64,000 bases of DNA from Pseudomonadota bacterium (GTDB lineage: Bacteria > Desulfobacterota > Desulfobulbia > Desulfobulbales > Desulfocapsaceae): contig JAHIUA010000016.1 of assembly GCA_018817385.1 (NCBI GenBank), positions 1 through 64,000 of the forward strand, written 5' to 3'. A program made the translations under genes and the position numbers. Under the pieces are notes generated by a model that was given only the letters and a program-made list of their open reading frames with translations, was not told the DNA's origin and made no database searches. Positions within the stretch are counted from its first letter, which is position 1. Every line of letters begins with the position of its first letter. Below are positions 6,712-42,315 of the stretch, in pieces.

Positions 6712-6806
6712 GTCCTTTTTCGTTATCAATAACCATTTGAAATTCAGTACAATAATCAAAAACTTAGCAGTGCCACTGAATTATAGACTATTCCGCATCA
6801 TACAAA

Positions 6807-7527: not shown

Positions 7528-8034
7528 AAAAATCTCCTTGCTACAATTATACTTTCGATGAATGGTTTTTGAAATCTATGCTCATATAAGGTCACTTCTC
7601 GGCTCACAAACGGAACTCAAATTCTCCCAACAGTCTTGCCGTGAATTTGAAGATGCGTTCATTTTCTGGTCTTTGCCATCTTTTTTTAGAAGTAATTTTT
7701 ACTCATTCCAGTGTGGTTCAGGTTTATAAATGCTGATCTGATCTGATCTAATCATTTCGCTGCGACTTGAGCACGTTGAAGGAAACTTCGATAGGGGCGC
7801 TTTAAATGCAGGAAGTGCAATCGGTTGCCAGTGTGTCCGTTTCAGCAACTGAAACCTCTCTCTAGAAATTGGCACTCCCAGACAAGACTAGTTAAATGTC
7901 ACGAAATTAAGAAGTTAAAGTCCTACTTTCCTGTTGACAAATTTATGGATTCTGGGTGATTCTATGTTGTTAAATAAAATATGGCCAGTTTTTTATCTTA
8001 TCCTGACCACAGCAGAAATAATATTCCTTGAGTA
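7528..8034. other. Intergenic region between divergent transcription units
   Basis: About 500 bp without a gene that I can support. It should contain the promoter of the exported cluster (leftward) and of the membrane protein (rightward). A TTGACA at 7934-7939 has no good -10 partner at 16-18 bp. A short CTGATCTGATCTGATCT microrepeat is near 7735. Confidence 0.4.
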
Positions 8035-8790
8035 TTGTTTGAGAAGACAGATTCCTCACTTATGAAAGAACCAGCAAAATTAAGAAATAGTCAAACTTTT
8101 ATCTCCAACATCTGTTGGATTTTCACGGTCATTTTTACTTTGCTGACGGTGTTTCCTTTTCTCGATGGCAACCCATTCAGTGGGTTTTGGGGAATGGCGT
8201 TTGTCTCTATTTTTTTATCTTTAGCCTCTTGTCTTGTCGCATTTATTTTTCTGAGCAGGGCTAGGAAAATGGACAAACTATTGAGCGGCGATATGTTGCT
8301 TGCCCGCTGGGAATTGGATGACAAAACACTCCAAGATTATGTTGCAAACCAAACAACAGAAAACTGTGAAAAAAATAAGGCCATCATGTGGTTGATCGCT
8401 ATTCTTTTTGGGCTTATTTCCATACCATTTATGCTTTTTTTAGACGGTGATGAAATGTCAGGTTTTTTACTGATAATGGGTTCAACTGTACTCATTGTTT
8501 TCGGCGCATCACGTTTTTTCCCCTGGTATTATCAGCGTCAGAATCTGAAAGGGGATAGACAAGTATTGATTGGCGGCAAGTACGCCTATGTAAATGGTTA
8601 TTTCCATAATTGGGATTTCCCCCTTTCGGGCTTAAGCAAAATAGCAGCCATAAACAAACCCTTCTATGGCCTGCATCTTACCTATTATTACACAGACAGA
8701 ACACTCAAGCATACGCATGATTTGAAGATTCCTGCTCCCGTCGGAATGAATTTACTACCGCTCATTGCCTGGATTAAAAAAAACAATTAG
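8035..8790 (+). CDS. Four-helix integral membrane protein of unknown function
   Basis: 251 residues from a TTG at 8035; an ATG at 8062 would give 242 residues and is equally possible, since neither has a clear ribosome site. Four transmembrane helices are visible as two pairs: about residues 22-42 and 50-75, then 118-140 and 148-168. The C-terminal 80 residues are soluble and beta-rich (VLIGGKYAYVNGYFHNW), reminiscent of the PH-like domains of small bacterial membrane proteins; that comparison is only by feel. No catalytic motif is seen. The gene stands alone between the exported cluster and a repeat-rich intergenic region. Confidence 0.65.
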   Translation: MFEKTDSSLMKEPAKLRNSQTFISNICWIFTVIFTLLTVFPFLDGNPFSGFWGMAFVSIFLSLASCLVAFIFLSRARKMDKLLSGDMLLARWELDDKTLQDYVANQTTENCEKNKAIMWLIAILFGLISIPFMLFLDGDEMSGFLLIMGSTVLIVFGASRFFPWYYQRQNLKGDRQVLIGGKYAYVNGYFHNWDFPLSGLSKIAAINKPFYGLHLTYYYTDRTLKHTHDLKIPAPVGMNLLPLIAWIKKNN

Positions 8791-8865: not shown

Positions 8866-9081
8866 TCACTTTTTACTTTTACCTCGTTTCATTGAAATAA
8901 AGATTAAGAAAATTCCAGTGCCAATTAAGATCAAATTTGCCATTGACAATTGAGTGTGTTTTTCAAGTTCATGAATTCTTGGAAAGAATTTAAGGTACAG
9001 AACAGCAACAGGCCCCTTCGGAATCCCCGCGCTATAAGTGCTTACCGACGATAGTAGCTCCACCCTCGATTTTTCTTCCAT
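8866..9081 (-). CDS. Possible small single-span membrane protein
   Basis: A 71-residue frame from the ATG at 9081: a charged N-terminus, a middle containing FPRIHELEKHTQ, and one C-terminal transmembrane helix (ANLILIGTGIFLIFISM) ending in a positive tail (KRGKSKK). No ribosome site precedes the ATG. Extending the frame upstream runs into the REP-like repeat, so the longer version is unlikely. Real but hypothetical at best. Confidence 0.35.
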   Translation of the reverse strand: MEEKSRVELLSSVSTYSAGIPKGPVAVLYLKFFPRIHELEKHTQLSMANLILIGTGIFLIFISMKRGKSKK

Positions 9082-9108
9082 CAGGAAGCAAAAAATAAAG
9101 GCAAAAAC

Positions 9109-9205
9109 AGGGGTCAAGTCTCCCTTTGACCTTTGTTGTGAATCTTTGTTGTAAATATTCGGTAGAGAAATATAGGTTCATACTGCTACGCCAAGAATAC
9201 CCAGG
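9109..9205. repeat. Dispersed REP-like repeat, copy 2
   Basis: Second copy of the element seen at 1222: the first 25 bases are identical, including the GGTCAA/TTGACC hairpin, followed by looser similarity to about 9205. The rest of the gap to 9387 holds no gene I can support. Confidence 0.55.
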
Positions 9206-9387
9206 CGGCCGCTATCGCATTACGAATCGGGGCAGGCGAAAAAAAGATATTCTTCTCGTCCAATGACTATGAACTTTTCATCTTCGTTCTTCAGGAACCC
9301 GTTGGAATGTTTAATCTCTACGTTTCCGCCTACTGCCTCATGTCTACACGAATGGGCAACAAAAAGGCGGCTGGAAAGAAAATACTG

Positions 9388-9813
9388 CTAACTCAAAGCT
9401 GGTAGAATAAGTTTATTCTCCTCATGAATGATTTTCCCGGCACTGCGGAGAGCTTTCATTGCCCTGGTAATACTGACTCGGTGTGCTCCTGTCAAAAAGC
9501 TCAGGTCTTCAGGGGTCAGCGGGAATTGGATCACCATTCCCCGTGGGACACGGGAACCATGCTCTTGAGCAACATTGTACAGGACACTGTAGAGTCGCTC
9601 TTCGACATTCGTCACCGCCAGACTCCCTACCCGGCTGATGAGCCATGAGATTCTCTCACTCTGGTTTCTTATAAGCTGAAGACCGATATTCGGATTTTGG
9701 CGCCCAAGCTGTTCGAACTGGCTTCTACTGTATCCGCAACCCAATGTATCTTCAAGAAAAATGGCGCTCACAGGATAATTAGCTGTCTTCCATTTATTGT
9801 CGTTACTGTTCAA
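9388..9813 (-). pseudogene. Crp/Fnr-family regulator, N-terminally truncated
   Basis: What remains is the end of the cyclic-nucleotide-like sensor domain (YPVSAIFLEDT), the dimerisation helix, and the winged-helix DNA-binding domain with a good recognition helix (FLTGAHRVSITRAMKALRSAGKI). About 90 residues of the sensor barrel are missing. The frame opens inside the last codons of the upstream DsbA-like gene, with only about ten foreign residues (from a TTG) before homology starts. This indicates that the 5' half was lost by recombination at 9790-9813. It might still make a constitutive DNA-binding fragment, but pseudogene is the simpler reading. Confidence 0.7.
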
Positions 9814-27272: not shown

Positions 27273-28163
27273 ATGTCACTTGCAGCAACACGCATCGACC
27301 TTCTCAAGGGTTGCCCCAGAAATATCAAAAGACGCCTCCCCCGCGACATCCTCCTCATTCTCTTTGTCACGTTTGGGGCTATTCTGACTATTATTCTGGT
27401 CCAGAGAATCAAGACTGAAAATGATATTTCCACGGCCCTGATCAATGATTCCTCTCATCTCGTTAAAAAACGTTTTCAATCCGTTACCTCACCTCTCAAC
27501 AACACCATGATGCTGCTTGCCAAGTGGGGTGAATTGAATCTGCTCAGACTTGATGACCCCGAGCTCCTTGGCCGCCAGTTCAAAGCTCTTATGGGCATTC
27601 ATTCTGATATCAGTGCCATCGCTCTGGCAGACACAGAATCAAATGAGGTGATCCTATCCCATCACAAGAAGCAGTGGTTCCTGTATGAAGAGCGTGAAAG
27701 GAGGACAATCTCCTCAATCTTGAATAACGGCAAGATTATCAACAGTGAGGAAAAGAGAGAGAACAGGGCCAACCAAGCGCCATCGCTCTGGGTTCAGGGA
27801 GCGATGGCCAGCACCACTCCAGCCGGAAGTCTCTTTTTAACAGCCCCCTCCCCCCTTAAAGGATCTGAAGAGACCGGTATCATCGCAAGTCTTCGCTGGT
27901 CGAGACGTGACAGCCCGGACAACAGCTTTATCTCTGTCTTTTCCTTTACCATAAAAGACCTTATGCTCTTCATGGAAGATTTGGAAATCACTGAGAATGG
28001 ACACCTCCTCCTGCTCCAGAAGAACGGGACACTTCTCAGCAGCATCAGAGACAGCAGTCTGCAGCCATCAGCAACGCTCCCGTTAGCAACACAAAAGAAC
28101 ATACCTTTTTTCAAAAAATACTCTCAGGAACCACCATGTCCAGACCGAAATATCAACACATAA
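27273..28163 (+). CDS. Membrane-anchored sensor domain without output domain
   Basis: 296 residues. One N-terminal transmembrane helix (ILLILFVTFGAILTIILVQ), then a periplasmic domain of about 230 residues with Cache-like features (long helix ISTALINDSSHLVKKRFQSV, strands such as ISAIALADTESNEVIL and GHLLLLQKNGTLLSS). Proteins of this plan normally continue into a second helix, HAMP and a GGDEF, kinase or chemoreceptor module; here the frame ends after IPFFKKYSQE and the last 9 codons overlap the start of the next gene. It seems to be an orphan or truncated sensor. Family weakly recognised. Confidence 0.6.
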   Translation: MSLAATRIDLLKGCPRNIKRRLPRDILLILFVTFGAILTIILVQRIKTENDISTALINDSSHLVKKRFQSVTSPLNNTMMLLAKWGELNLLRLDDPELLGRQFKALMGIHSDISAIALADTESNEVILSHHKKQWFLYEERERRTISSILNNGKIINSEEKRENRANQAPSLWVQGAMASTTPAGSLFLTAPSPLKGSEETGIIASLRWSRRDSPDNSFISVFSFTIKDLMLFMEDLEITENGHLLLLQKNGTLLSSIRDSSLQPSATLPLATQKNIPFFKKYSQEPPCPDRNINT

Positions 28164-28945
28164 CCTCCCGCTGCTTTGTCAATGCCCCCTGGTATGACCT
28201 TAAAGAACGCTATCTCGATCTCTTTCTTGCTCATCGTATTCGGCCGGAAATTGGCCTGGAAGGTCTCTGTCTCTACCGGGAATCCAGGGAAGAATTTTCA
28301 AAGATAGCCAGGATTCTCCAGGAGAACAGTCTCGACTGCACCCTGCATGCACCTTTTTTTGACCTTGCCCCCGGTGCCCTTGATCCTGAGATCCTTGAGG
28401 CCAGCCGCAACAAACTGCACAAGGCCTTCAGCCTGATCGAAATATTTCACCCCAGATCAGTGGTCTGTCATTTAAACTATGAACAAAACAAACAAGGCTA
28501 CAAAGAAAAAGAGTGGCGGACGGCAGCTCTAACAACATGGCAGGAACTGACAGAGATTGCGGCTGCCTCAGGGACCCTTCTCATGCTGGAAAACACCTAC
28601 GAGAAAAGCCCCGATGCCCACGAGGCCATCCTCTCCACACTCAATTCTCCCCATGCCCGCTTCTGCCTCGACGTCGGCCACCTCATGACCTTTGCCAAAA
28701 CTGACTGGCAGAAATGGCTGCCCAGGCTCTCCCCCTGGTTGGGCCAGCTCCATCTCCACGACAACAACGGTGAAAGAGATGAGCATCTCGGTTTAGGGTT
28801 AGGTTCCTTTGATTTCAAGGGCTTGTTCAACTTTCTGGCCACACAAAAGCTCCATCCTCTGGTAACCCTGGAACCCCACAGTGAAGAGGACCTGTGGCAG
28901 GCCCTGGAATATCTGGATCGGACAGCCCTGCTGGATCTCCTTTAA
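28136..28945 (+). CDS. TIM-barrel protein of the sugar phosphate isomerase/epimerase family
   Basis: 269 residues, AP-endonuclease-2-like TIM barrel. Metal-ligand segments are visible: LHAPFFDLAPGA, VVCHLNYEQN, LMLENTYE, ARFCLDVGHLM, LGQLHLHDNNGERDEHLGLG and LVTLEPHSEED. The E-D-H-H arrangement fits a divalent-metal isomerase or epimerase. The substrate is unknown. It overlaps the sensor-domain gene by 28 bp, implying coupled translation. Confidence 0.85.
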   Translation: MSRPKYQHITSRCFVNAPWYDLKERYLDLFLAHRIRPEIGLEGLCLYRESREEFSKIARILQENSLDCTLHAPFFDLAPGALDPEILEASRNKLHKAFSLIEIFHPRSVVCHLNYEQNKQGYKEKEWRTAALTTWQELTEIAAASGTLLMLENTYEKSPDAHEAILSTLNSPHARFCLDVGHLMTFAKTDWQKWLPRLSPWLGQLHLHDNNGERDEHLGLGLGSFDFKGLFNFLATQKLHPLVTLEPHSEEDLWQALEYLDRTALLDLL

Positions 28946-29034
28946 AAATTTGTAACTATACGGCATTAGCTGAATAATCACAAAAAGTTCAATTTGAGGG
29001 GAGAGCAGTTCGCAAAGACCCTTCCTTTCCCTCG

Positions 29035-29208
29035 TCAAGAGGTGAGGATGACAACAAAGTCATCGCCTGCGGCGCCGATACAGAAGAGATAGCTGTCCCC
29101 GGCAACAACGATGGACATTGGAGTACCAGTTGTGCTATCGAAGGTGAGTTGTTTGTCTTGAGAAGATATCATTACGCTGCCAGTGCTGGGATGAGGGCAT
29201 GTCATCAT
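29035..29208 (-). CDS. Possible small hypothetical protein
   Basis: 57-residue frame from an ATG at 29208 preceded by AGGAGG at a good seven-base spacing. The peptide is rich in Ser/Thr/Gly with MTCPHPSTGS at the start and beta-like GDSYLFCIGAAGDDFVVILT at the end. No family recognised. The ribosome site is the only positive sign. Confidence 0.3.
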   Translation of the reverse strand: MMTCPHPSTGSVMISSQDKQLTFDSTTGTPMSIVVAGDSYLFCIGAAGDDFVVILTS

Positions 29209-29416
29209 GCCTTGGCCTCCTGGCGTGTACACCTCCACGGAATGACAGAGGACTCATCCCCCCTCTATCCCTTGCCCCCTCTTAATAAATCCTGGCACGA
29301 GGAGATAACTTCTCGGCACCTCGCACGAAAAACGCTTTTCCCTCCCTCTCGCTACCCCGCCTCTTTTTGTTGATCCAAAATTTCCCAATTCCACCTGCGC
29401 ACCAACAATCATTATG

Positions 29417-29468
29417 ACATTTACGTCATGTCTCCAGACGCTATTGTGGAGATGTTTACATTTATGTC
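29417..29468. repeat. Direct repeats ACATTTAYGTC upstream of the operon
   Basis: ACATTTACGTC at 29417-29427 and ACATTTATGTC at 29458-29468, 41 bp apart and one base different. The first sits inside the palindrome ATGACATTTACGTCAT; the second contains ACAT-TT-ATGT. The spacing of about four helical turns would suit a regulator such as the NikR-like protein or an NtrC-type activator. Confidence 0.4.
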
Positions 29469-29601
29469 GATCAGCACACATTCCACAGACAAGGCCATAG
29501 TCCTGCCCCAGGTTTGAAAAAGCTCAAAAACAATGGCTACCCTATCGATATTAAAACCATTTTTTTTATTCGTGGTAACGCAGGCAATCCAATCTCACCA
29601 T

Positions 29602-29617
29602 TGGCACATTATTTGAT
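29602..29617 (+). promoter_or_regulatory. Sigma-54-like promoter of the guanidine/urea operon
   Basis: TGGCAC-N5-TTGAT, with GG and GA exactly 12 bp apart as for -24/-12 promoters. The -24 half is perfect; the -12 half has GA where GC is expected. It lies about 60 bp before the ATG of the binding protein and overlaps the inverted repeat CCAAT-N6-ATTGG (29589-29604). Nitrogen-scavenging operons commonly use sigma-54, which raises the plausibility. Confidence 0.45.
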
Positions 29618-29674
29618 AGGACCAGTATTACCAATTGACCCATTCGTAATAATTTAACCGGCGAGGTGCAAGAA

Positions 29675-30652
29675 ATGAAGTTGAGAAGCAAGTGGTTGAT
29701 GAGTGCAATATGTCTCTTTGTAATGGCCTGCAACGTTCAGGCTGAGCCCCTGAAAATTGCCTACAGTGACTGGCCTGGCTGGGTGGCCTGGGACATTGCC
29801 AAACAAAAAGGTTTCTTTGCAAAAAACGGAGTTGAGGTGGACCTTGAATGGTTTGAGTACATGGCCTCCATGGACGCATTTGCTGCCGGTAAAGTTGATG
29901 CGGTCACCGTGACCAATGGTGATGCCCTTGTCCTGAATGCCACCGGTGCCAGAAACATCATGGTGATGATCAATGATGTCAGTAACGGCAACGACAAGAT
30001 TGTTGGTGGCCCTGGGATCAGCTCCATCAAGGACCTCAAAGGCAAAAAGATTGGAGTAGAGCTTGGGGTTGTCAGTCATCTTCTTCTCATAAATGCCCTC
30101 AAGGACTATGGCATGACTGACAAGGATGTGAGTCTGATAAACGTACCTACCCACCAGACAGCACAAATCCTGGCCTCGGGCGATGTAGATGCCATTGTCG
30201 CCTGGCAGCCGAATTCGGGTCAGGCCTTAAAATCTGTCCATGGTTCCTCTGCGATTTATACCAGTGCCGATGCCCCTGGTCTGATCTACGATGTATTAGC
30301 CGTCTCTATTGGCTCTATGATGGAGCGCCGTGCTGAGTGGGAGAAGGTTGTTGCGGCCTGGTATGATGTTGTCGCCTACATGAAAGATCCCGCCAACCGA
30401 AAGGATATGCTGGAAATCCTTTCGGCCCGTGTCTCACTGACACCCGAAGAGTATGAACCTTTTCTGGAAGGAACAAAGATCCTGTCACTCCCAGAGGCCC
30501 TGAAAATCTTTAAACCTGCCGACGGCTTCGGCAGCCTCTATGGTTCAAGTGATGTGGTCAATGCGTTTCAGGTCGAAAACAAAGTGTATGATACCCCCGT
30601 AGACGTCAAGAAGAGTATCGACAGCTCTCTTACCGAGAAGTTGAAAAATTAA
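29675..30652 (+). CDS. ABC transporter substrate-binding protein (urea carboxylase-linked, NMT1/TauA type)
   Basis: 325 residues from the ATG at 29675, eight bases after a GAGG site. Signal peptide ending VQA, with a cysteine (MACNVQA) nearby but no proper lipobox. The fold is that of the NMT1/TauA/SsuA binding proteins: LKIAYSDWPGWVAWDIAKQK, GKVDAVTVTNGDALVLNATG, IKDLKGKKIGVELGVVSHLLL and GDVDAIVAWQPNSGQALK. This subtype is known from urea carboxylase/guanidine gene clusters. It presumably binds guanidine or a related cationic compound in the periplasm. Confidence 0.9.
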   Translation: MKLRSKWLMSAICLFVMACNVQAEPLKIAYSDWPGWVAWDIAKQKGFFAKNGVEVDLEWFEYMASMDAFAAGKVDAVTVTNGDALVLNATGARNIMVMINDVSNGNDKIVGGPGISSIKDLKGKKIGVELGVVSHLLLINALKDYGMTDKDVSLINVPTHQTAQILASGDVDAIVAWQPNSGQALKSVHGSSAIYTSADAPGLIYDVLAVSIGSMMERRAEWEKVVAAWYDVVAYMKDPANRKDMLEILSARVSLTPEEYEPFLEGTKILSLPEALKIFKPADGFGSLYGSSDVVNAFQVENKVYDTPVDVKKSIDSSLTEKLKN

Positions 30653-30664
30653 GGGAGAACATTC

Positions 30665-31726
30665 ATGTCCTGGCTTTCTATTCAAAAAGAGCTCCCGGCC
30701 AGAAGGAAGGCAGCATTGATTCTGCTCTCCTTTCTACTCCCTCTTGCTCTCTGGTCAACCATCAGCTATGTGCCTTTTATCTGGCATCCAATGATGGAAA
30801 TACAAAATGCAGGTGGAAGCCTGTACCTAGAGCAGGGACAAAGGGTCACCAGGAATGTCTTTGAGCAGGAAAACAGGAGATTGATGGAAGGTGGCGAGGA
30901 GGTACTTACAGGTGTTCGAGCAAATCCAGTGTACCTGCCGCCACCCCACAACGTACTTACTGCTGTTTATACAGCATTTAAAACGAAACCTCGCCGTCCC
31001 GATGACCCGTGGCTGCATGAGAGTCTGGCCCATAGTATTCAGGTTGTATTCTATGGCTTTCTCCTGTCTTCACTCATCGGGGTGCCGCTGGGCATACTCT
31101 GTGGCGTCTTTAGTTTTTTCTCAAAACTCTACGAACCGTTTTTTGAGTTCTTCAGGTATATGCCGGCTCCCGTCTTCGGTGCCCTTGCTGTTGCCGTTTT
31201 AGGAATTAACGATGGCCCTAAAGTTGCCATTATCTTTATCGGCACCTTTTTCCAACAGGTACTGGTAATTGCCAATACCACCAGACAATTACCGCCCTCA
31301 CTGCTTGAGGCAGCCCAGACCCTGGGAGCAAAGGGAGGAACCCTGCTCAAGAAAGTTGTCCTCCCGGCAATTGCCCCTACTGTGTTTCTTGATATGCGCA
31401 TCCTTCTCGGCTGGGCCTGGACATACCTTATTGTGGCGGAGGTTGTTGGCACAAGCACCGGAATAACCTGGTTTATCAACCAGCAGGCAAAATACCGGAT
31501 TTATGAAAATGTCTACGCTGCCATTCTCATGATAGGAATTATCGGTCTGGTCACCGATATGGTGCTGGCCTGGATAGGACGAAATCTCTTTGTCTGGGAT
31601 GGGGGAAAACGAAGCGGATTATTCCTGTTTCTTTCGGAATTGTTCTGTGGACCAATGGACAAGACATTTACGTTCACCAAAAAAAGAGCCTTGAAACATG
31701 CAGACTATACAACTCCCGAGCTATAA
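30665..31726 (+). CDS. ABC transporter permease of the guanidine/urea operon
   Basis: 353 residues. First helix near 17-37, then an unusually long periplasmic loop of about 70 residues (to around 100) before the core of five helices. The coupling loop [24 protein letters not shown] fits the TauC/SsuC group. The long loop is, as far as I recall, shared by permeases of this carboxylase-linked subgroup. The ATPase start lies 29 bp inside its 3' end. Confidence 0.9.
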
Positions 31727-32591
31727 AGAACAAAGCCCCACAGTCGCTGACCGCTTCAATCGTCTGAAGCAACGGCAAGTGATCCTAGAGGCGGAGAATA
31801 TCAGCAAAATATTCCCAACCGAACAAGGAGATATCACAGCTCTTGCAGATATCTCCTTTAAGGCATACAGGCGGGAATTTCTCTCTGTAATCGGTCCCTC
31901 CGGTTGTGGGAAATCAACGCTGATCAGAATCCTTTCGGGCTTGGAGAGCGCTTCTGAAGGACAGGTATTGCTTGACGGCAAGCCAGTTGACCAACCTGGT
32001 CCTGAACGGGGCATGGTCTTTCAGGGCTACACCCTCTTTCCCTGGCTGACTGTCAAAAAAAACGTCATGTTTGGGCTTGAGGTTGCGGGGAAGAGCCAGA
32101 CACAGGCCCGAGCTGAGGCATTGCAGTGGATAGAAATGGTGGGACTTGAGGAGTTTGTTGATCATTATCCCGCCCAGTTATCGGGGGGCATGAAACAACG
32201 GGTAGCCATTGCCCGCGCCCTGGCAAACCAGCCGCGGGTACTATTGATGGACGAACCCTTTGGCGCCCTTGATGCCCAGACCAGAGCCCGGATGCAGTCG
32301 TACCTGATGCAGATTTGGCGGAATGTGGATATCACCATTATTTTCATCACCCATGATCTTGATGAAGCCGTCTATCTGTCAGATCGCGTTCTTGTTTTGA
32401 ACGCCAACCCCGGCACAGTTCAAGAGATGATAGAGGTGCCGGTGGCACAACCTCGCTCTCCCAAACAGCACCTCAATCCTGAGTTTCTGGCGACCAAAGA
32501 GCATATCGAAAGTCTCATCCACCCGAACAGGGATGAAGAAGACGTATTACCAATCATTCGTCTTACCAATATCAAAGATGACATCCTTTGA
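31698..32591 (+). CDS. ABC transporter ATPase of the guanidine/urea operon
   Basis: 297 residues, TauB/SsuB type. Walker [15 protein letters not shown]-loop [11 protein letters not shown], signature [15 protein letters not shown], Walker [14 protein letters not shown]-loop [19 protein letters not shown]-terminal extension of about 35 residues follows the core. It overlaps the permease gene by 29 bp, so the two subunits are co-translated. Confidence 0.93.
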
Positions 32592-32639: not shown

Positions 32640-33110
32640 ATGGAACAGAAGCCAAAAACAGACAAGGTGCACAGAATAAGTGTCTCACTCCCTGAGAAAC
32701 TGACAAGAGAGTTAGACCAGATGGTAACAGAGGGTGGATATCTCAATCGCAGCCAGGCAATAGCCCATATGATACGCAACACCCTCCTCGAACACTACCA
32801 ACGACAAGGAACCCAGGTCATGGCCGGGGCCATGACTCTGGTCTATGACGAAGCTCGGCCCAACCTGAGGGCGAATCTTGTTCGAATTCAACGAAAATAT
32901 ATCGATTCAGTGATTTCTTCTCTCAATGTTTTGCTGGAAAACGACTTTTCCCTGGAGGTGCTCCAGGTCCAGGGGCCAGTGAACAGATTAAACAAAATAG
33001 TAAAAGAGATCAGGGCCTGCAAAGGTGTTGAAAGCTGCAAGTTAGCACTTACCTCCACCGTAATACCACCAATACACAGGAAAGAAGGAGTGACTGATGG
33101 AGACGTTTGA
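32640..33110 (+). CDS. NikR-like ribbon-helix-helix regulator lacking the nickel site
   Basis: 156 residues. The N-terminal ribbon-helix-helix is clear (VHRISVSLPEKLTRELDQMV, then GYLNRSQAIAHMIRN), followed by a NikR/ACT-type domain (GAMTLVYDEA). In alignment by eye with E. coli NikR the four Ni ligands (His76, His87, His89, Cys95) are replaced by Arg85, Asn96, Leu98 and Ser104, so classical nickel sensing is lost. It sits inside the operon, its stop overlapping the first DUF1989 gene by 14 bp, and so probably controls the operon in response to another ligand. The ribosome site is weak. Confidence 0.82.
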   Translation: MEQKPKTDKVHRISVSLPEKLTRELDQMVTEGGYLNRSQAIAHMIRNTLLEHYQRQGTQVMAGAMTLVYDEARPNLRANLVRIQRKYIDSVISSLNVLLENDFSLEVLQVQGPVNRLNKIVKEIRACKGVESCKLALTSTVIPPIHRKEGVTDGDV

Positions 33111-33822
33111 ATCCGGAAAGATATTATTTGAAAAAGTGATTGCAGGGGGATGGAACTGGTCCCATATCATCAAACGGGGCACAGCCGTACGTTTGACGGA
33201 CCTGGAGGGCGGGGCCAATGTTTCTGCCCTTTTCTACAACGGTACCAACTTCAGCGAACGGTACAACATGGGAGACACCTTGAAAATTCAGCACATCTCC
33301 TATCTGGCCAAAGGGTGCTGTATCTATTCGGATATGGGTCGCATTCTCATGTCAATAACGGATGAATCCTGCGGTTGGCACGATGTCATATGCGGAGTTT
33401 CCGATGCCGGCCTGATAGAGAGACGGTTTGGCAAGAAATCGTATCAACAATTCAAGAATTCCTTTTATCGCAACGGCTACGATTCCCTCCTTGTTGAACT
33501 TGGCAAGCACGGCCTGGGACGAAGAGATTTTACCGAAACCGTGAATTTTTTCAGCAAAGTTGCTGTGGATGAAGACGGCAATCTCTCCTTTGCCGAAAAC
33601 GCTTCCAGGCCCGGCGATTATGTGGAGCTGCGAGCAGAAATGGATACACTGCTGGTTCTCGACAGCGGCATGCACCCCCTTCATCCCAGCAAGTCATATC
33701 TGGAAAAACCGGTGCAGATTACCATCTCAACCTGTGCTCCTGCTCTTCCTGATGATCTCTGCCGTTCCTTCTGCCCGGAAAACGAACGCGGTTTTATAAA
33801 CACCGAACAGTATCATCTATAA
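33097..33822 (+). CDS. DUF1989 protein 1 (carboxyguanidine deiminase subunit candidate)
   Basis: 241 residues. DUF1989 (urea carboxylase-associated) features: GWNWSHIIKRGTAVRLTDLEGGANVSALFYN, the Cys/His motif DESCGWHDVICG near 90-101, VNFFSKVAVDEDG and YVELRAEMDTLLVLDSGMHPLHP. Paired DUF1989 proteins form the heterodimeric carboxyguanidine deiminase (CgdAB), which converts carboxyguanidine to allophanate and ammonia. AAGGAG lies eight bases before the ATG. Confidence 0.9.
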   Translation: METFESGKILFEKVIAGGWNWSHIIKRGTAVRLTDLEGGANVSALFYNGTNFSERYNMGDTLKIQHISYLAKGCCIYSDMGRILMSITDESCGWHDVICGVSDAGLIERRFGKKSYQQFKNSFYRNGYDSLLVELGKHGLGRRDFTETVNFFSKVAVDEDGNLSFAENASRPGDYVELRAEMDTLLVLDSGMHPLHPSKSYLEKPVQITISTCAPALPDDLCRSFCPENERGFINTEQYHL

Positions 33823-33852: not shown

Positions 33853-34623
33853 ATGAATCAATGGCATCGAATGACATGGGAAGAGATCGGGCACCTGCCA
33901 GCCGCTGGTATGGATGCCGCTTTGTTGCCCGTTGGTGCAACCGAACAGCATGGCCCCCACCTGGGATGTGGTATGGATTCTGAGATTGCAGCACAACTCA
34001 GTCAAAAAGTATCTGAAAAGACCGAGGTAGTCTTATTGCCAACCTTGCCCTACGGCTGCTCAATTGGCCACTCACATTCCTGGCCAGGCACCATTGCCCT
34101 GCAGCCTAAAACTCTGATTGACGTGGTGAAAGAGATTGGTGACTGGGTGCATGCCTCGGGGTTCAAACGATTTTTTATCGTTAATGGCCATGTTTCTAAC
34201 TTTGCCCCCTTACGCTGCGCTTTAGAGATGCTCAGGGCAGAGCACGATGACTTTATGGTGGCACTTATTAATTCAGGCACACTCAGTGAGCGCGTTCGAG
34301 AGAGGCACTCGCAAGATGCCAGCGATTGGCATGCCAATGAGGCTGAGACTTCATTAATAATGGCCCTGGCCCCGGAACTTGTGAGGCAAGAGCGCTTAAA
34401 AGACAGTGATGATCCCGACAGAACAGCAGGCTGTGTTTTTTCGCACCCTGTGAACCGCACGAGCACAAATGGCGTTACCGGCAAACCGAGTTTGGCAACC
34501 ACTGACAAAGGCCAAGAACTGTTCACCTGGATGGTTGAAGATTTAAGCACCCTTGTGAAAAAGGGCATGAAAGAAAACCCGCCGTTAGCACAAGGTTATT
34601 TCAAAAAAACGGTACCTGTTTAG
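33853..34623 (+). CDS. Creatininase-family amidohydrolase
   Basis: 256 residues. Metal-binding residues of the creatininase family are visible: ATEQHGPHLGCGMDSEIA (Glu31, His33, Asp42), SHSWPGTI and DWHANEAET, where the last glutamate should bind the second metal. The usual NGHGGN loop is NGHVSNFA here. The family includes creatinine hydrolase and other amidases of cyclic or N-substituted substrates. Its place between two DUF1989 genes hints at release of guanidine or urea from a larger compound. Its last three codons and stop lie inside the terminal repeat of a 108-bp element, so the C-terminus was set by that insertion. Confidence 0.85.
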   Translation: MNQWHRMTWEEIGHLPAAGMDAALLPVGATEQHGPHLGCGMDSEIAAQLSQKVSEKTEVVLLPTLPYGCSIGHSHSWPGTIALQPKTLIDVVKEIGDWVHASGFKRFFIVNGHVSNFAPLRCALEMLRAEHDDFMVALINSGTLSERVRERHSQDASDWHANEAETSLIMALAPELVRQERLKDSDDPDRTAGCVFSHPVNRTSTNGVTGKPSLATTDKGQELFTWMVEDLSTLVKKGMKENPPLAQGYFKKTVPV

Positions 34624-34719
34624 CAGCACTCCATCTTCGTCCATTGAGGTCTTCTCGAAGAGCACGAGTATACTTCGAAACCCTAAATGAACGAATACAA
34701 AGCACTGCTAAACAGGTAC
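34612..34719. repeat. 108-bp MITE-like element with perfect 15-bp terminal inverted repeats
   Basis: GTACCTGTTTAGCAG at 34612-34626 is the exact reverse complement of 34705-34719. Similarity of the arms continues inward (CACT/AGTGCT, CTTCG/CGAA). A small palindrome CTTCTCGAAGAG marks the centre. A diverged full-length copy is at 59147-59268, and a right end at 50032-50065. No protein is encoded, no target duplication is visible, and no matching transposase is present. It interrupts the operon between the creatininase and glnT genes. Confidence 0.75.
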
Positions 34720-34782
34720 AGAGTAATTGGTTACCAAACTATTGGGCATTCCATGAATAGGTACAAAAGACAAGAGGGTGTT

Positions 34783-36147
34783 ATGAGTATTAAAGTTGAT
34801 ATTGAGGAAATGAAAGAGAAGTTGAAAGCCAAGGGCGTTAAATTCTGCCTTGGGGCCTATGTAGACATTCATGGCATCCCAAAAGGGAAGTTTGTCCCCA
34901 TTGACCACCTCCATCACATGGTGAAAGGGTCTGAACTCTATACAGGATATGCCTTGGATGGCTTAGGTCAAATGCCCAATGAAGATGAAATTGCCTCTGT
35001 TCCGGACTTAGAGAGTCTGATTCAACTCCCCTGGCAACCGGAAGTTGCCTGGATGGCTGCAGATAATACTCTGCATGGCGAGCCCTATGCTATCAACACC
35101 CGTGTAGCCTTAAAAAAAGTGCTGGCAGAAGCTGAAGCAAAGGGCTTTGGCCTCAATCTGGGGATTGAGTGCGAACTCTTCGTCTTAAAGGAAGAAGAGG
35201 ATGGTTCTCTTACCGTTCCTGATCCAGAGGATCGCCTGACCAAGCCATGTTATGACGTACGTAGTTTTATGAACCGTTTTACATGGATCAATAAGATGGC
35301 CACCACTATTAACGACGACCTCGGCTGGGATTTATACTCCCTGGATCATGAAGATGCCAACGGCCAGTATGAATTCGATTTCGAATACAGTGATGCCTTG
35401 ACCATGTGTGACCGCTTCATTTTCTTCCGCTATATGGCCAAACACTATGCGCAGGAAGAAGGGTTGTTAGCCACCTTTATGCCAAAACCATTTGCCGACA
35501 AAACAGGAAATGGCGCCCATTTCAACATGTCTCTGTATGACAAAGAGACAGGTGCCAATCTGTTTGCCTGCGATCCCAAAAATGATCCTCGTGGATTAGG
35601 ATTAACCGAACTCGGTTACCACTTTATCGGTGGGGTCTTAAAACATGGTCTGGCCTTGTGCGCAGTATTTTCACCCACAGTGAACAGCTACAAACGTCTT
35701 GTCAGGCAAGGTTCTATGGCCACTTTTTCCTGGGCCCCTGTGTTCAACTCATTCGGTTCCAATAACCGTACCAACTCGGTTCGTGTGCCCATGGGCGGCG
35801 GGCGTTTCGAATCGAGAAATGCCGATGGCGCAGTCAACCCCTATCTCGCGGCAGCCTTAGTCTTGGCAGCAGGCCTGGAAGGAATTCGTGAAAAATTAGA
35901 CCCGGGTCAGGCTCAGGAAGACAACCTCTATGCCCTATCCGAAGAAGAACGGGCGATAAGAGGTATAGAGTTCCTCCCCCAGGACTTGGGCGAAGCCGTA
36001 CAGGCATTTGCAGGTGACCCGTTTGTGGAAGAGGTACTGGGAAAAGGATTACGAGATGAATTTATAAAATATAAGACCCTGGAATGGGAAGAATACCACC
36101 GCACTGTGTCAGCATGGGAGATTAAACGCTATAGCCATCTTTTCTAA
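34783..36147 (+). CDS. glnT: Type III (GlnT-like) glutamine synthetase
   Basis: 454 residues from the ATG at 34783 (GAGGG before it); the frame is open upstream into the repeat element, but that part is not conserved. Catalytic segments: [52 protein letters not shown] and [31 protein letters not shown]. This matches GlnT or gamma-glutamyl-amide synthetases of the short class rather than GlnA. In this operon it could fix ammonia freed from guanidine or allophanate, or glutamylate an amine intermediate. The usual adenylylation loop is not obvious. Confidence 0.9.
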
Positions 36148-36248: not shown

Positions 36249-36899
36249 ATGAATCTGGAACTCAAAAAAAGCCTGCTCACCCCGGAAAATGCTCTCTCCA
36301 CAGAGAAGGTAGAAGCTGGCTGTGGGTGGATGTATCCGGTTAACAAAGGGCAGATTATTCGTATCACCGATCTCCATGGCAACCAGGCCGTTGATACTCT
36401 TTTTTTCAACGCCAACAGAACCGAGGAACGGTATCACGCAGGCAACACCATGCGCGAACAGGGGAATGTCTACATTTCAACGGGAACAGAAATTCGTTCG
36501 AACGATAACAATGTGTTGCTGACGGTGGTAGCCGATACCTGTGGCCGCCATGACACCCTTGGCAGTGCCTGCTCATGCGAGAGCAACACAGTCCGTTATG
36601 CCCTGGACAAGAGGTACATGCATTCGTGCCGCGATATTTTCCTCAAGACCCTCCTCGATTGGGGCCAGGGCATGGATAAGAAGGACCAGGTCTGCAATAT
36701 CAACTTTTTTATGAATGTCCCTGTCAACCCGGAAGGAGGATCCAATTTTGCAGACGGTCTTTCAGAACCTTTCAAATATGTAGAGATGCGAGCGGAGATG
36801 GATGTCATTGTTCTGGTGGCCAACTGTCCTCAACTCAACAACCCCTGTAATGCCTATAACCCTACCCCTGTGGAAATGACCATCTGGGATGTGGAATAA
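36249..36899 (+). CDS. DUF1989 protein 2 (carboxyguanidine deiminase subunit candidate)
   Basis: 216 residues. Same family as the protein at 33097 but a different subgroup: CGWMYPVNKGQIIRITDLHGNQAVDTLFFN, the motif ADTCGRHDTLGSACSCESN, VNFFMNVPV-type strand and YVEMRAEMDVIVLVANCPQLNNPCN. The two paralogs are only distantly alike, which fits the two-subunit deiminase CgdAB. It is followed after 14 bp by the carboxylase gene. Confidence 0.9.
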   Translation: MNLELKKSLLTPENALSTEKVEAGCGWMYPVNKGQIIRITDLHGNQAVDTLFFNANRTEERYHAGNTMREQGNVYISTGTEIRSNDNNVLLTVVADTCGRHDTLGSACSCESNTVRYALDKRYMHSCRDIFLKTLLDWGQGMDKKDQVCNINFFMNVPVNPEGGSNFADGLSEPFKYVEMRAEMDVIVLVANCPQLNNPCNAYNPTPVEMTIWDVE

Positions 36900-36913: not shown

Positions 36914-39900
36914 ATGTTTACCAAGGTACTTGTAGCAAATAGAGGGGAAATTGCCTGCCGCATAATTCGAACCTTACGTGAGATGGGTATCATTTCGGTG
37001 GCTGTTTATTCGGAAGCAGATGCCCATTGCCAACATGTATTGGATGCTGACGAGGCGTATCTCTTAGGTCCGGCAGCACCATCTGCAAGTTATCTTGATG
37101 GTGAAAAAATCCTTGCCCTCGCCCAAGAATGCGGGGCTCAGGCCATTCACCCGGGATACGGCTTCTTAAGTGAAAATACGGGATTTTGCCAGAAGTGCGA
37201 GGACAGAGGGATACGGTTCATTGGCCCCACCGCAACCCAAATGCTTGATTTTGGCCTCAAGCACAGGGCACGTGGACTGGCCGAGCACTACAAGGTACCG
37301 CTCCTGCCAGGTTCCTCGCTGCTCACCTCGCAAGAGGATGCCCTGAAAGAAGCGCAGCGCATTGGTTACCCCGTGATGCTGAAGAGCAGTGCCGGTGGTG
37401 GCGGTATCGGCATGGAACTCTGTTTTTCTGCTGAGGAGATACAGAAAGCCTATGAGCGCATCAGAAGGTTGAGTGAAAATAACTTCAACGATGCTGGTCT
37501 CTTTGTTGAAAAATATATCGAACAGGCCCGGCATATAGAGGTACAGATTTTTGGTGATGGAAAGGGGAATGCCCTTATCCTTGGCGACAGGGATTGCTCG
37601 GTACAGCGCCGTAATCAAAAAGTAATCGAAGAGACCCCGGCCCCGCATGTCAGCAAAGCAATGCGAGACGACTTATACAGTGCAGCCAAGCGCCTGGTTG
37701 AAGGGGTACGGTATCGATCTGCCGGAACCGTCGAGTTTGTATATGATGCCGCGGAGAAACAGTTTTATTTCCTTGAGGTCAATACCAGACTACAGGTCGA
37801 GCATTGCGTAACGGAAGCGATCTTTGATGTCGATCTGGTGCAATGGATGGTCCTCCTGGCAGCTGAAGAATTACCTGAGCTCGCCTCATTTACCCTGGCT
37901 CCCCAGGGAGCGGCAATTGAAGTCCGGATCTACGCCGAAGATCCCGGCAAGTCATATCAGCCCAGCACAGGAATCTTGACCGAAGTAGTCTTCCCGGAAA
38001 ATGTCCGCCTCGACACCTGGATCAAACGGGGATCTGAAATCAGTTCCTATTACGACCCCCTTCTTGCCAAACTCATTGTCCATGCCCCGTCCCGAGCAGA
38101 GGCGATCCTCGCCCTGCAGAGTGCCCTGGCCCTGTCCGCCCTCGGGGGCTTGGAAACAAACCTCATTTTATTACGGCAGATAGCTGAATTTCCAGCTTTT
38201 ACAGAGGGCATATATACCACCCGCATTCTCGATACCCTCGTCTATATGGCGCCAACCATTCTGGTAGATGTTGCCGGCATGCAGACAACACTCCAGGATT
38301 ATCCTGGACGCCTTGGCTATTGGGCCGTGGGAGTACCGCCTTCCGGTCCCATGGACAGCCTGAATCATCGCCTGGCCAACAGGATAGTCGGCAACTCTGA
38401 GGAAGCAGCAACCCTGGAAATAACAATAAAAGGCCCGGAACTCACCTTTAACACTCCGGCCATCATTGCTCTCAGCGGAGCTGATATCTCTGCCACCGTT
38501 GATGGAGTAGCTGTTGATCGCTACAAACCACTCCCTATAGAAGCTGGCAGTGTACTGAAAACAGGTACGGCCTCACATGGTCAGCGGGCCTATCTCTCTG
38601 TCCGAGGTGGTATCGATGTCCCCCTCTACATGGGGAGTCGTTCAACCTTTACCCTTGGCCAGTTCGGAGGCCATGCCGGTCGCAGCCTCAGGGCCGGAGA
38701 TGTCTTGCGAATTGGCACTGCCTTTGAATCCGAGCCACGCTCTCTTGCCGAAGAAGACATACCCGGCCTCCCGCAAATATGGGAGATCGGCGTCCTCTAT
38801 GGCCCCCATGGCGCTCCTGATTTCTTCACCACTAAGGACATAGAGACATTTTTTGCAACAAAATGGGAAGTGCACTACAACTCATCCCGCACTGGAGTCC
38901 GTTTGCTCGGCCCGGGGCCCCAATGGGCCCGTACCGATGGTGGAGAGGCTGGTCTCCACCCGTCAAATATCCATGACAATGCCTATGCCATCGGCGCTAT
39001 TGATTATACTGGTGACATGCCGGTCATCCTGGGCCCGGATGGCCCGAGTTTAGGGGGATTTGTCTGCCCGGCAACCATTGTTCAGGCCGAGTTGTGGAAA
39101 ATGGGCCAACTGAGGGCTGGAGACAGGGTCCGCTTTATACGTTTGAGCCAAAGTGCTGCAGAACAGTTGGAGACAGGGCAGGAAAATTTCATAAACACCT
39201 TGGCTGGAGATCACAAGGAAGCGACATTTGATCTTTCAGGGGCCGCTCAGGAACCAGCCATTGTCAAAACTCTGGCCATTGACGGCAATAAGGAAGAGGT
39301 CGTGTATCGAAGGGCTGGAGATAAGTACCTGCTCATTGAGTATGGTGAGCTTGTCTTAGACCTTCGCCTCAGATTTCGCGTCCATGCCTTGATGCTCCAC
39401 CTGGAACAATTGGATCCTCCCGGGATAATTGACATTACTCCAGGAATCCGTTCCCTCCAGATCCATTACGACAATCGCATCCTCCCCCTAGCTGACCTGC
39501 TCACCCTCCTGGAACACGTTGAGAGGGAGATTGCCGGTTATGAAAATAAAGACGTTCCGGCCCGCATCGTCCATTTACCTCTGAGCTGGGATGATGTCTC
39601 AACCCATACCGCTATTGAAAAGTACATGCAATCGGTTCGGCCTGATGCACCGTGGTGCCCTTCAAACATCGAATTTATCAGACGGATAAATGGCCTGGAA
39701 AGTGTGGAAGAGGTACAAAAGATCGTTTTTAATGCCAGTTATCTGGTTATGGGGCTTGGCGACGTCTACCTGGGTGCCCCAGTGGCCACGCCAATGGATC
39801 CACGCCACCGCTTGGTTACGACCAAATACAATCCAGCCAGGACATGGACACCGGAGAATGCCGTGGGAATTGGCGGGGCCTATCTCTGTGTCTACGGCAT

Positions 39901-40528
39901 GGAGGGACCGGGCGGATATCAGTTTGTCGGCCGCACAGTCCAGATGTGGAACCGTTATAATTCGACCCCCGAATTCGAACCTGGAAAACCCTGGTTACTG
40001 CGGTTTTTTGATCAGATACGATTTTACCCCGTCAGTCACGAAGAACTCAAAAGACTGCGCCGGGATTTTCCCCACGGAGGCGCCGGATTACAGATAGAAG
40101 AAACAACATTTAATCTCCAGGCCTATGAACAATTTCTTCAGGAGAACAGCGAATCAATCAGTTGTTTTAAAGAACAGCAGCAAAAATCTTTTGAGCTTGA
40201 GCGACAGGAGTGGCTCGAAAAGGGTCACCTTAATTTTCATAGTGAAGAACCGGTCGCCCCGATACAGGACGGAGAAATAAAAATCATCCAGGGATGCGAG
40301 GCTGTGCTCAGTCCCGTTTCAGGCAGCCTGTGGAAACTCCTGGTTGAGACAGAAAAAGCAGTCACCGAGGGCGACACGCTTGCGGTGATTGAGTGCATGA
40401 AGATGGAATTTAATGTCAAGGCTCCCTGCAGCGGCATTGTAAAACAAGTGCTGTGTGTTGAAGGTGGCAGAGTATCCTCCGGACAACACCTGGTCAGCAT
40501 TTCTCCCCTCAACAGGAAAAGAATATGA
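36914..40528 (+). CDS. Biotin-dependent urea/guanidine carboxylase
   Basis: 1204 residues, single-chain carboxylase. Biotin carboxylase domain about 1-440 ([19 protein letters not shown] loop [11 protein letters not shown] near 155, [23 protein letters not shown]). The carboxyltransferase follows as fused KipA/KipI-like parts: [18 protein letters not shown] and [19 protein letters not shown] near 450-800, then a KipI-like region near 820-1010. The biotinyl carrier domain ends the protein, with the biotin lysine in [10 protein letters not shown] (about residue 1163). Annotated homologs are called urea carboxylase; with two DUF1989 genes beside it, guanidine is the more probable substrate. Its stop overlaps the next start (ATGA). 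Confidence 0.95.
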
Positions 40529-42315
40529 ATCTGACAATCTCCAACTTACATCAGCTCTACGAGAGTGGCCAGAAGAGTCCCCGACAAGTAATCACCAGGT
40601 TACTTGCACAGAGCCGGGAAAACGATCCTGAAATCTGGATCCACCTCCTGACAGAAGAGGAAGTCGAGCCATACCTCCAAGGTCTGGAATCTTCCAAGGC
40701 AAGGGATTTGCCCCTCTATGGAATTCCATTTGCAATCAAAGACAATATCGACCTTGCCGGAATTCCGACGACTGCCGGTTGCCCTGAGTATGGGTATGTG
40801 CCGACTGGCTCAGCCTTTGTTGTCGAACAACTCATAGCCGCAGGGGCTGTTCCTCTGGGAAAGACCAATCTCGATCAATTTGCCACCGGTCTCGTCGGCA
40901 CCCGCTCACCCTATGGGGCCTGCAAAAACAGCTTTAGTCCGGAATTCATTTCCGGTGGTTCAAGCAGCGGTTCGGCAGTGGCAGTGGCCAAGAACTTGTG
41001 TACTTTTGCACTTGGTACCGATACGGCAGGTTCCGGAAGGGTCCCTGCTGCATTTAATAATATACTGGGGCTGAAACCATCCAGGGGATTGATCAGTACC
41101 AGGGGAGTAGTTCCTGCCTGTCGCACCTTGGACTGTGTCTCTCTGTTTGCCCTTTGTACTGGCGATGCGGCTCAGATCATGCAGGTGGCGGTGAAACATG
41201 ATCCCCAGGAACCCTATTCCAGAAAGAAACAAGGCTTGGCCAAGACGACCACTGTCCGCAACACCTTCACCTATGGCGTGCCGTATAAGAACCAGTTACA
41301 GTTTTTTGCGAACCTCGAATATGAACAGTGTTTCTCAGCCACTCTGGAACGGTTAGACTCCTTGGGCGGAAAACGGGTTGAGATCGATTTTGAACCGTTC
41401 CTGACCGCAGCTCAGCTCCTCTATGAGGGACCATGGGTGGAGGAACGCACTGCCGCTGTCGGAGGATTTTTAGAGACCCATCTAGATGCCGGGTATCCGA
41501 TTACCCGAGAAATCATCTGCGGGGCCAAGCCGCAATCTGCAGTCGACCTGTTTACAGCCATGTACAGCCTGCAGACACTGAAAGCCAAAACAGACGCCAT
41601 ACTGGAAGAGCTGGATGTGCTGATAACCCCCACGGCCGGAACCTGTTATACCCAGGCAGAAGTCTCGGCTGAGCCACTGGCCCTCAATACAAACCTTGGC
41701 TACTATACCAACTACATGAACCTCCTGGATTACTGCGGCCTGGCCGTCCCCGCAGCCATGACAGCAACAGTACCCTTTGGAGTAACACTCGTTGCCCCGG
41801 CCTTTCATGATGAGATCTTGTTAACGCTAGGTTCACGACTGCACCAGGCCGCTCAGGTAGGCATGGGAACCGGGAGTGAGCGCCCTCCTCAATATACGCC
41901 GGAAGGCCTGGAGGACACTGTTCTGGTGGCGGTCTGCGGGGCCCATATGCAGGGTCTTCCCCTTCATTACCAACTCATGGATCTGGACGCGCAACTGATA
42001 GTAAAAACAGCCACTGCTCCTTCCTATCGGATGTATGCACTGAATGGCAAGCCAGCCAAACCCGGCCTTATTCGCGATACGAAAATGGGTGCAGCCATAG
42101 AGGTAGAGGTCTATTCACTTTCCTTCAAGGCCTTTGGCCAATTTACCGCCCAGATACCCCATCCTCTGGGGATGGGAAAACTTGAACTGACAGACGGGAG
42201 ATGGATCCCGGGTTTTATCGCCGAACCCCTCGTCTGCCAGGAGGGAAAAGAAATCACAGAATTCAAAGGCTGGCGTTCCTATCTCAAGACAAAAGGGATT
42301 TCCTCCAATAAATAG
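40525..42315 (+). CDS. atzF: Allophanate hydrolase
   Basis: 596 residues. Amidase-signature domain (about 1-450): Lys in GIPFAIKDNIDLAGIPTTAG near residue 72, and the Ser-cis-Ser set in ISGGSSSGSAVAVAKNL near 140-150, then GTDTAGSGRVPAAFNNILGL. A C-terminal domain (about 470-590; LPLHYQLMDLDAQLI, SYRMYALNG, AIEVEVYSLS) completes the two-step hydrolysis of allophanate to CO2 and two ammonia. It overlaps the carboxylase gene by four bases. Confidence 0.95.
   Translation: MNLTISNLHQLYESGQKSPRQVITRLLAQSRENDPEIWIHLLTEEEVEPYLQGLESSKARDLPLYGIPFAIKDNIDLAGIPTTAGCPEYGYVPTGSAFVVEQLIAAGAVPLGKTNLDQFATGLVGTRSPYGACKNSFSPEFISGGSSSGSAVAVAKNLCTFALGTDTAGSGRVPAAFNNILGLKPSRGLISTRGVVPACRTLDCVSLFALCTGDAAQIMQVAVKHDPQEPYSRKKQGLAKTTTVRNTFTYGVPYKNQLQFFANLEYEQCFSATLERLDSLGGKRVEIDFEPFLTAAQLLYEGPWVEERTAAVGGFLETHLDAGYPITREIICGAKPQSAVDLFTAMYSLQTLKAKTDAILEELDVLITPTAGTCYTQAEVSAEPLALNTNLGYYTNYMNLLDYCGLAVPAAMTATVPFGVTLVAPAFHDEILLTLGSRLHQAAQVGMGTGSERPPQYTPEGLEDTVLVAVCGAHMQGLPLHYQLMDLDAQLIVKTATAPSYRMYALNGKPAKPGLIRDTKMGAAIEVEVYSLSFKAFGQFTAQIPHPLGMGKLELTDGRWIPGFIAEPLVCQEGKEITEFKGWRSYLKTKGISSNK

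Follow-up and report, generated by a model that had tools for sequence, protein, structure and literature searches.

A NikR-fold regulator without the nickel ligands as a candidate guanidine-responsive switch of guanidine carboxylase operons

The guanidine operon of a Desulfocapsaceae genome, contained in a window of 64,000 nucleotides (the whole stretch of DNA analyzed here), encodes a NikR-fold regulator devoid of the nickel ligands (32640–33110, forward strand), a 156-aa open reading frame supported by Pfam, NCBIfam, and structural alignment. Judging from residue patterns and gene neighborhoods, the nickel-ligand-less NikR is a family, found in Desulfobacterota, Alphaproteobacteria, and Acinetobacter, for which we use the working label NIKRX. 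The NikR architecture was already known, and it is the specificity that would be new. Our best reading, held with somewhat more than even confidence, is that NIKRX acts as a repressor devoted to the guanidine operon, independent of nickel and released by guanidine. The broader proposition seems to us evenly balanced, namely that these proteins make up a family of guanidine-responsive, NikR-derived transcription factors in the three groups, doing the job of a riboswitch in protein, by themselves in most bearers and in tandem with a riboswitch in Acinetobacter. NIKRX is thus presented as a strong candidate for a guanidine-responsive protein switch, concrete and testable, with a defined operator. 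If this is true, NikR has changed from sensing a metal ion to sensing a small organic molecule, and a protein replaces, or shares its post with, a riboswitch. To our knowledge, guanidine sensing for gene control is so far known only from RNA. A search of the open-licence literature by titles and the opening parts of abstracts returned no protein regulator of guanidine genes, NikR-like or other, and the consulted portion of a report on Acinetobacter baumannii (PMC5050338) places a urea carboxylase operon under a LysR regulator, with NikR, CopG, and guanidine not mentioned in that portion.

Both parts of a NikR were recovered in the window protein, in line with the original prediction of a NikR-family member with an intact DNA-binding ribbon-helix-helix (RHH). 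Residues 12–47 (32673–32780, forward strand) matched Pfam RHH_1 (7.4e-6, 26.2 bits, cut-off 20.5), this domain being assigned from sequence, as the structural alignments with NikR begin at residue 58. Residues 62–138 (32823–33053, forward strand) matched the ACT-like NikR_C domain (6.5e-19, 68.4 bits, cut-off 22). All five NCBIfam NikR models matching the protein stayed below their curated cut-offs, the closest with 103 versus 105 bits, and all eight distinct sequences matched in the PDB were nickel-responsive regulators (best 2bj1, 6e-24). An AlphaFold model of the protein (mean pLDDT 76, nine sequences in the alignment) was superposed on 2bj9, which we take to be the Pyrococcus NikR, with Z 14.8 and rmsd 1.1 over 82 residues (59–140 on 52–133, offset 7), and on the E. 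coli NikR 3od2 with Z 14.2 and rmsd 1.5 over 84 residues (58–141 on 49–132, offset 9). Both alignments, of the structure-based kind that had been proposed as a check, were ungapped, and the offset of 9 reproduces the earlier by-eye assignment, from which the E. coli ligand numbers were also taken: R85, N96, L98, and S104 stand in place of His76, His87, His89, and Cys95. NIKRX has the RHH and NikR_C fold in common with the NikRs of E. coli, H. pylori, Pyrococcus, and delta-proteobacteria (Z 13–15), whereas the His3Cys nickel tetrad of NikR has been lost. The top match outside NikR was TM1266, a stand-alone ACT domain (PDB 2nzc; Z 14.4, rmsd 1.2, 79 residues), which resembles NIKRX in fold only, with 9% identity and a chain of 80 residues that lacks any DNA-binding portion.

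In Desulfobacterota, where 65 of 66 NikR-family loci were read (L028 was left out), 53 presented HHHC at the nickel-ligand positions and 12 rows from 11 genomes presented R-N-L/M-S/R, with no intermediates. We examined 24 NIKRX members in total (12 from Desulfobacterota and 12 from Pseudomonadota), all located beside guanidine carboxylase genes, and the first, third, and fourth ligands (E. coli H76, H89, and C95) were lost in every one of them, while the second (E. coli H87) was lost in 12. The 12 Pseudomonadota members all keep this second position as H96 (NIKRX numbering), their four ligand positions reading A/L/Q, H, F/V/Q, and S/V/I in order. R85, E71, and N96 are held only in the Desulfobacterota members, with A, L, or Q at position 85 in Pseudomonadota, and a salt bridge of R85 locking the free form, considered as a general mechanism, was dropped because R85 and E71 are not kept there. 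As residues of the old metal site differ between the lineages, we name no ligand-binding site. Conservation across the whole group lies elsewhere, with Q111, L117, and P143 present in 24 of 24 members and P144 in 23 of 24, so that Q111, L117, and the PP tail are, by alignment, the main group-wide marks of NIKRX. The 24 NIKRX sequences grouped together in a 77-row tree, where a branch with support 96/95 separates them from 53 canonical NikRs; this tree is midpoint-rooted with long branches, and it does not place the Pseudomonadota NIKRX among all NikRs, because its canonical rows come from Desulfobacterota only and include no Pseudomonadota NikR.

The operon around the regulator runs entirely on the forward strand. 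It opens with a substrate-binding protein of an ABC transporter (SsuA/putative urea ABC family; 29675–30652, with the ATG at 29675 taken as the start, its NCBIfam matches falling short of the model cut-offs), followed by the permease (30665–31726) and the ATPase (31698–32591), both assigned by family models, and by NIKRX. Downstream lie UAAP1 (33097–33822; TIGR03425 and PF09347, 315 bits, cut-off 205.95), a creatininase-family protein (33853–34623; Pfam), a type III glutamine synthetase (34687–36147; TIGR03105), UAAP2 (36249–36899; TIGR03424 and PF09347, 306.6 bits, cut-off 284.7), a guanidine carboxylase (36914–40528; urea carboxylase by model name), and a predicted allophanate hydrolase (40525–42315), the latter an open reading frame whose homologs follow the carboxylase in related loci and are named atzF in RefSeq. 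UAAP1 and UAAP2 are probable carboxyguanidine deiminase subunits, a role taken from the consulted portions of PMC12186494 and PMC11410670. In those same portions, PMC11410670 gives Asp at both diagnostic positions as the criterion for a guanidine carboxylase, and PMC12186494, a 2025 review, describes the Asp/Asn difference. The window carboxylase has D697 and D950 at the positions of N1330 and D1584 of the K. lactis urea carboxylase (numbered by the 593 offset between chains 3va7 and 5i8i), which, together with the UAAP1/UAAP2 models, agrees with the earlier placement of the regulator inside a guanidine operon. The D/D pair was read in 14 of 17 loci, the other three being one with the first position (D) only (L116) and two that were unreadable (L037 and L119), and in all 11 Pseudomonadota loci.

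Among 395 genomes of the phylum, a single close relative of the window protein was found, in genome G153, with 44% identity. Scanning genome contigs with two peptide patterns gave eight loci (L035–L042, of which L035 is from Desulfogranum japonicum DSM 18378) with a common gene order, one of them ending at a contig edge; these eight are no census, because the patterns were derived from Desulfobacterota and returned no Pseudomonadota member. The slot between the ATPase and UAAP1 genes is occupied by NIKRX in all eight, and also in L088–L090, Novosphingobium, and Sphingobium, while in Asticcacaulis NIKRX heads a UAAP1 operon divergent from the transporter, and in Acinetobacter the same gene set stands in a different order, with NIKRX preceding the allophanate hydrolase. 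A co-occurrence search with a nine-row NIKRX alignment, in which members scored at least 232 bits and the other matches listed fell below 110 bits, detected NIKRX in 7 of 257 genomes of Desulfobulbia, the class of the window, with UAAP1 in exactly those seven. In the class of G153, inferred to be Desulfuromonadia from matching named loci, NIKRX was present in 4 of 277 genomes, all within the eight that have UAAP1, and thus all 11 members reside in UAAP1-bearing genomes. Among the control genomes, Caulobacter vibrioides gave matches to UAAP1 as well as to NikR_C. A protein search of a plasmid collection yielded 17 records, of which 4 were annotated nikR (31–36% identity) and 13 matched at 37.9–44.3%; 11 of these 13 constitute our Pseudomonadota set, H16 and H19 being left out as further strains of the same species. 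The carriers are Novosphingobium, Sphingobium, Asticcacaulis excentricus (strain CB 48, L153), and Acinetobacter, in which the proteins are annotated as “CopG family ribbon-helix-helix protein,” “CopG family transcriptional regulator,” or “transcriptional regulator,” and guanidine carboxylase, UAAP2, and allophanate hydrolase genes are present in all 11 loci. Altogether, NIKRX is linked to guanidine carboxylase genes in 23 of 23 loci examined, in contrast to the linkage with nickel uptake or nickel enzymes that marks a NikR. Plasmid pSA1 of Novosphingobium resinovorum (L146) harbors two NIKRX copies (5456–5881 and 9001–9420) flanking transporter genes, and the A. baumannii “plasmid” records L147 and L155 measure 3.66 and 4.09 Mb and so look like chromosomes filed as plasmids.

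The DNA upstream of 29675, to which the original prediction had pointed, contains a NikR-type candidate operator, GTATTAC-N14-GTAATAA (29625–29652), placed 22 bp before the first gene. It agrees at 13 of 14 positions with GTAWTAC-N14-GTAWTAC, the 28-bp motif of two 7-bp half-sites that we scored and that recurs in related loci. At least 12 of 14 positions agreed in 7 of 10 Desulfobacterota loci; this scoring is not independent, since the motif was read off Desulfobacterota sequences that were later scored. The other three (L038, L088, and L089), which are Desulfobulbus-type, reached only 8–9 of 14, and L088 and L089, serving as a fresh test of the operator, failed it at that level. A spacer of 14 was the best of 31 over eight Desulfobacterota loci (12.38; next 10.62). 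Extra operators before the NIKRX gene itself in L039, L040, and L041, unused for the motif, scored 13, 13, and 14 of 14, each unequaled in 20000 shuffles, although the three loci share one genus and are mutually not independent.

In Pseudomonadota, with the motif fixed beforehand, a site of at least 12 of 14 was present in the promoter region of all 11 loci, the mean best score being 12.73 versus a null of 8.77 (sd 0.22, maximum 9.64 of 200) where the upstream sequences had been inspected before the scored regions were chosen; spacer 14 was a clear peak among 20 tried (next 10.55). The shuffles used for operators and for the sigma-54-like elements described below were first-order Markov, not exact dinucleotide shuffles. 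The A. baumannii loci L147 and L155 have an operator before each of three transcription units (UAAP1 14/14, NIKRX 14/14, and permease 13/14). The sphingomonad loci L148 and L152 present a second operator (at 5818 and 5792, respectively) in the gap that separates the operon from a divergently oriented TonB-dependent receptor gene, with similar sites in L149 (5856), L150 (5936), and L151 (5957), and this receptor is a candidate outer-membrane route for guanidine.

Sites of at least 12 of 14 numbered 38 in the 463 kb of the 23 bearer loci versus 37 in the 5.38-Mb genome of the window. In the latter, the full pattern matched 4 times when one mismatch was allowed and 37 times when two were, against 78 for a reversed-pattern control, and a shorter, exact 13-position pattern had one match, with one per strand for its reversed control. 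Genome-wide rarity of the operator was dropped as evidence because these own-genome counts do not exceed the control. A 12/14 site at 9655 in L117, whose operon has a riboswitch, was taken as chance. The consulted portion of PMC545781 reports the delta-proteobacterial NikR signal as GTGTTAC-N13/14-GTAACAC, also with its half-sites turned round. Both signals consist of two 7-bp halves about 14 bp apart, the half-site being GTGTTAC for NikR but GTATTAC for NIKRX, and this same build makes the NIKRX operator NikR-type, each of its half-sites differing by one base. On sequence grounds, it is very probable that NIKRX controls the guanidine operon through this operator.

The promoters that these operators accompany differ among lineages. 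In the window, a sigma-54-like element, TGGCACATTATTTGAT (29602–29617, forward strand), agrees at 10 of 12 positions, was equaled by 2% of 200 shuffles, and lies 7 bp before the operator. In Desulfobacterota, 8 of 10 loci have a comparable element close to the operator with a shuffle frequency of at most 0.02 (L035 and L089 being the two without), and all three Acinetobacter loci have one at the NIKRX promoter with a frequency of at most 0.01, but in the eight alphaproteobacterial loci the best match was no better than chance (0.25–1.0). From these matches, sigma-54 control is apparently limited to some lineages, and in the alphaproteobacterial loci a −35-like TTGAC was seen by sight inside the spacer of some further operators. 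The operator begins 7–9 bp past the sigma-54-like element in the window, L035, and L036 and ends 2 bp before it in L039–L042, both placements being such as would suit repression. A GC-rich hairpin followed by a T run is conserved between the operator and the first gene of L041 (~6845–6875) and, similarly, of L039, L040, and L042; by eye this leader is attenuator-like, and searching the L041 leader for RNA families brought up 12 weak matches, with no guanidine family among them.

In related genomes without NIKRX, the guanidine-I (ykkC) riboswitch precedes guanidine carboxylase operons. In the Desulfuromonadia operons L117, L118, and L119, which lack NIKRX, guanidine-I scored 88–90 bits before the first transporter gene, so that a guanidine riboswitch is present in three of the four assessable non-bearer operons (L116 was cut and left out). 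For the window, no guanidine riboswitch was detected at Rfam gathering scores, and lowering the threshold to E up to 10 over 28900–29720 brought three weak, unrelated RNA matches only. None was found at gathering scores in L035–L042, L088–L090, or the eight alphaproteobacterial loci either, which makes 0 of 18 assessable bearers (10 from Desulfobacterota and 8 alphaproteobacterial) after L037 and L090 had been excluded because their promoters are missing. Acinetobacter, in contrast, has both NIKRX and guanidine-I in three of three loci, with 82 bits in L147 and L155 by the Rfam model and 62.8 bits in L156 by a custom model; the latter was built from five sequences of these loci and, outside the riboswitch loci, gave two chance-level matches only (E 2.7 and 5.9). 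The order in each of the three is operator, guanidine-I riboswitch, and UAAP1. The RNA switch and the protein NIKRX thus occur together only in Acinetobacter among the bearers assessed. Strict mutual exclusion between them is disproved by Acinetobacter, which has both. The fourth assessable non-bearer, genome G018 (L121) from outside both classes, has a guanidine carboxylase operon with neither NIKRX nor a known guanidine riboswitch.

Taken together, these features lead us to the following scheme, in which we infer operator binding by NIKRX, repression, and guanidine as the inducer. The RHH domains would bind the 28-bp NikR-type operator with its two 7-bp half-sites and 14-bp spacer and, since the operator overlaps or abuts the promoter, bound NIKRX would block transcription, in several relatives probably including that of its own gene. 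The ACT-like domain, minus its metal site, would sense guanidine, which would loosen DNA binding, and the release of NIKRX would switch on guanidine import and breakdown. In Acinetobacter, NIKRX would stand before the riboswitch, possibly as an additional checkpoint. Canonical NikR needs nickel for DNA binding, so that the logic of NIKRX would have to be reversed, with the free form being the one that binds. That guanidine itself is the ligand we regard as about evenly poised, leaning slightly in its favor: NIKRX was the only guanidine-linked control found in the Desulfobacterota and alphaproteobacterial bearers, whereas the residues at the old metal site are not shared between lineages, and the guanidine-I riboswitch at the Acinetobacter UAAP1 promoter leaves room for a different NIKRX ligand in that genus, if not elsewhere. 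Nothing found in the analysis points to creatinine.

A rather improbable alternative keeps the same repressor and makes the inducer a pathway intermediate (carboxyguanidine or allophanate) or urea in place of guanidine. Because the Acinetobacter riboswitch already reads guanidine, sensing a different metabolite would be more informative there; R85 and N96 of the Desulfobacterota members would accommodate an anion, for instance allophanate, better than a cation; and in yeast, allophanate induces the breakdown of urea. Against such an inducer speaks the lack of any known guanidine riboswitch in all 18 assessable loci of Desulfobacterota and Alphaproteobacteria, as does the consideration that uptake would have to begin before any intermediate could form, and R85 is replaced by A, L, or Q in Pseudomonadota.

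It is unlikely that the C-terminal domain of NIKRX senses no small ligand, the protein being a fixed repressor or responding to nitrogen status while induction comes from elsewhere. Activators of sigma-54 could provide such induction in the 8 of 10 Desulfobacterota and three of three Acinetobacter loci with matching elements, and the riboswitch is another inducing device in Acinetobacter. The chance-level sigma-54-like matches of the eight alphaproteobacterial loci count against this, together with the group signature that the ACT-like domain and tail have kept (Q111, L117, and P143 in 24/24, P144 in 23/24).

Returning to nickel, a second NikR_C protein was found in 10 of 11 NIKRX-bearing genomes, the one showing none being G490, which is 85% complete, and all 12 non-NIKRX copies read were HHHC (10 from bearers and two from the non-bearers G710 and G734). 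The HHHC NikR of the genome of the window (L033) has a perfect GTAACAC-N13-GTGTTAC site at 5318, just before its likely ATG, and is followed by NikMQO-like genes (5291–8518), the start and the transporter naming being taken from open-reading-frame reading. In G153, the best site of the canonical type around its canonical NikR gene reached 11 of 14, and because a good site is lacking there the two operator specificities are contrasted in one genome only. The conserved ligand loss, the link to guanidine carboxylase genes, and an operator type of its own make a non-nickel specificity well supported, and NIKRX is very probably not nickel-responsive. The part of the original prediction that proposed a new specificity with a ligand other than nickel is therefore supported at the sequence level, while the identity of that ligand stays at the strength given above for guanidine.

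A metal sensor working through other ligands appears quite improbable. C127 is invariant in the Desulfobacterota NIKRX (12/12 rows) and seldom if ever seen among the canonical NikRs, H146 is invariant there too (9/9), and the Pseudomonadota members keep H96 in 12/12 and H146 in 4/12, all of which could hint at metal binding; yet C127 is kept in none of the 12 Pseudomonadota members and H146 in only those four, which weakened these alternative ligands, and against any metal site stand the loss of H76, H89, and C95 in 24/24 and the separate HHHC NikR of 10 of 11 bearer genomes. We know of no nickel enzyme among the guanidine operon genes. Finally, it is highly improbable that the operator belongs to canonical NikR and that nickel controls the guanidine operon, for although the 7-N14-7 build is that of the published NikR signal, with half-sites one base apart, and G153 has no good canonical site near its NikR (best 11/14) so that the contrast stems from one genome, the NikR of the window genome has its own perfect site and NikMQO-like genes, all 10 Desulfobacterota sites fit the GTATTAC type better by 2 positions each, and operator sites also precede NIKRX's own gene.

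Some genes around the operons deserve separate mention. In the window (33853–36147) and in L090 (1779–3906), UAAP1 and UAAP2 are separated by the creatininase-family and type III glutamine synthetase genes, which are absent from that position in L035–L042, L088, and L089; this insert perhaps feeds in another guanidino or amide substrate. At 28136–28945, the window encodes a TIM-barrel protein resembling CbiR (cobamide remodeling; 93.5 bits versus a cut-off of 105). In Acinetobacter sp. NCu2D-2 (L154, 12323–14549), the cluster includes an SMR transporter, a 2OG-Fe(II) oxygenase, and a hypothetical gene, which resemble the guanidine export and methylguanidine demethylation genes described in the consulted portion of PMC12508155.
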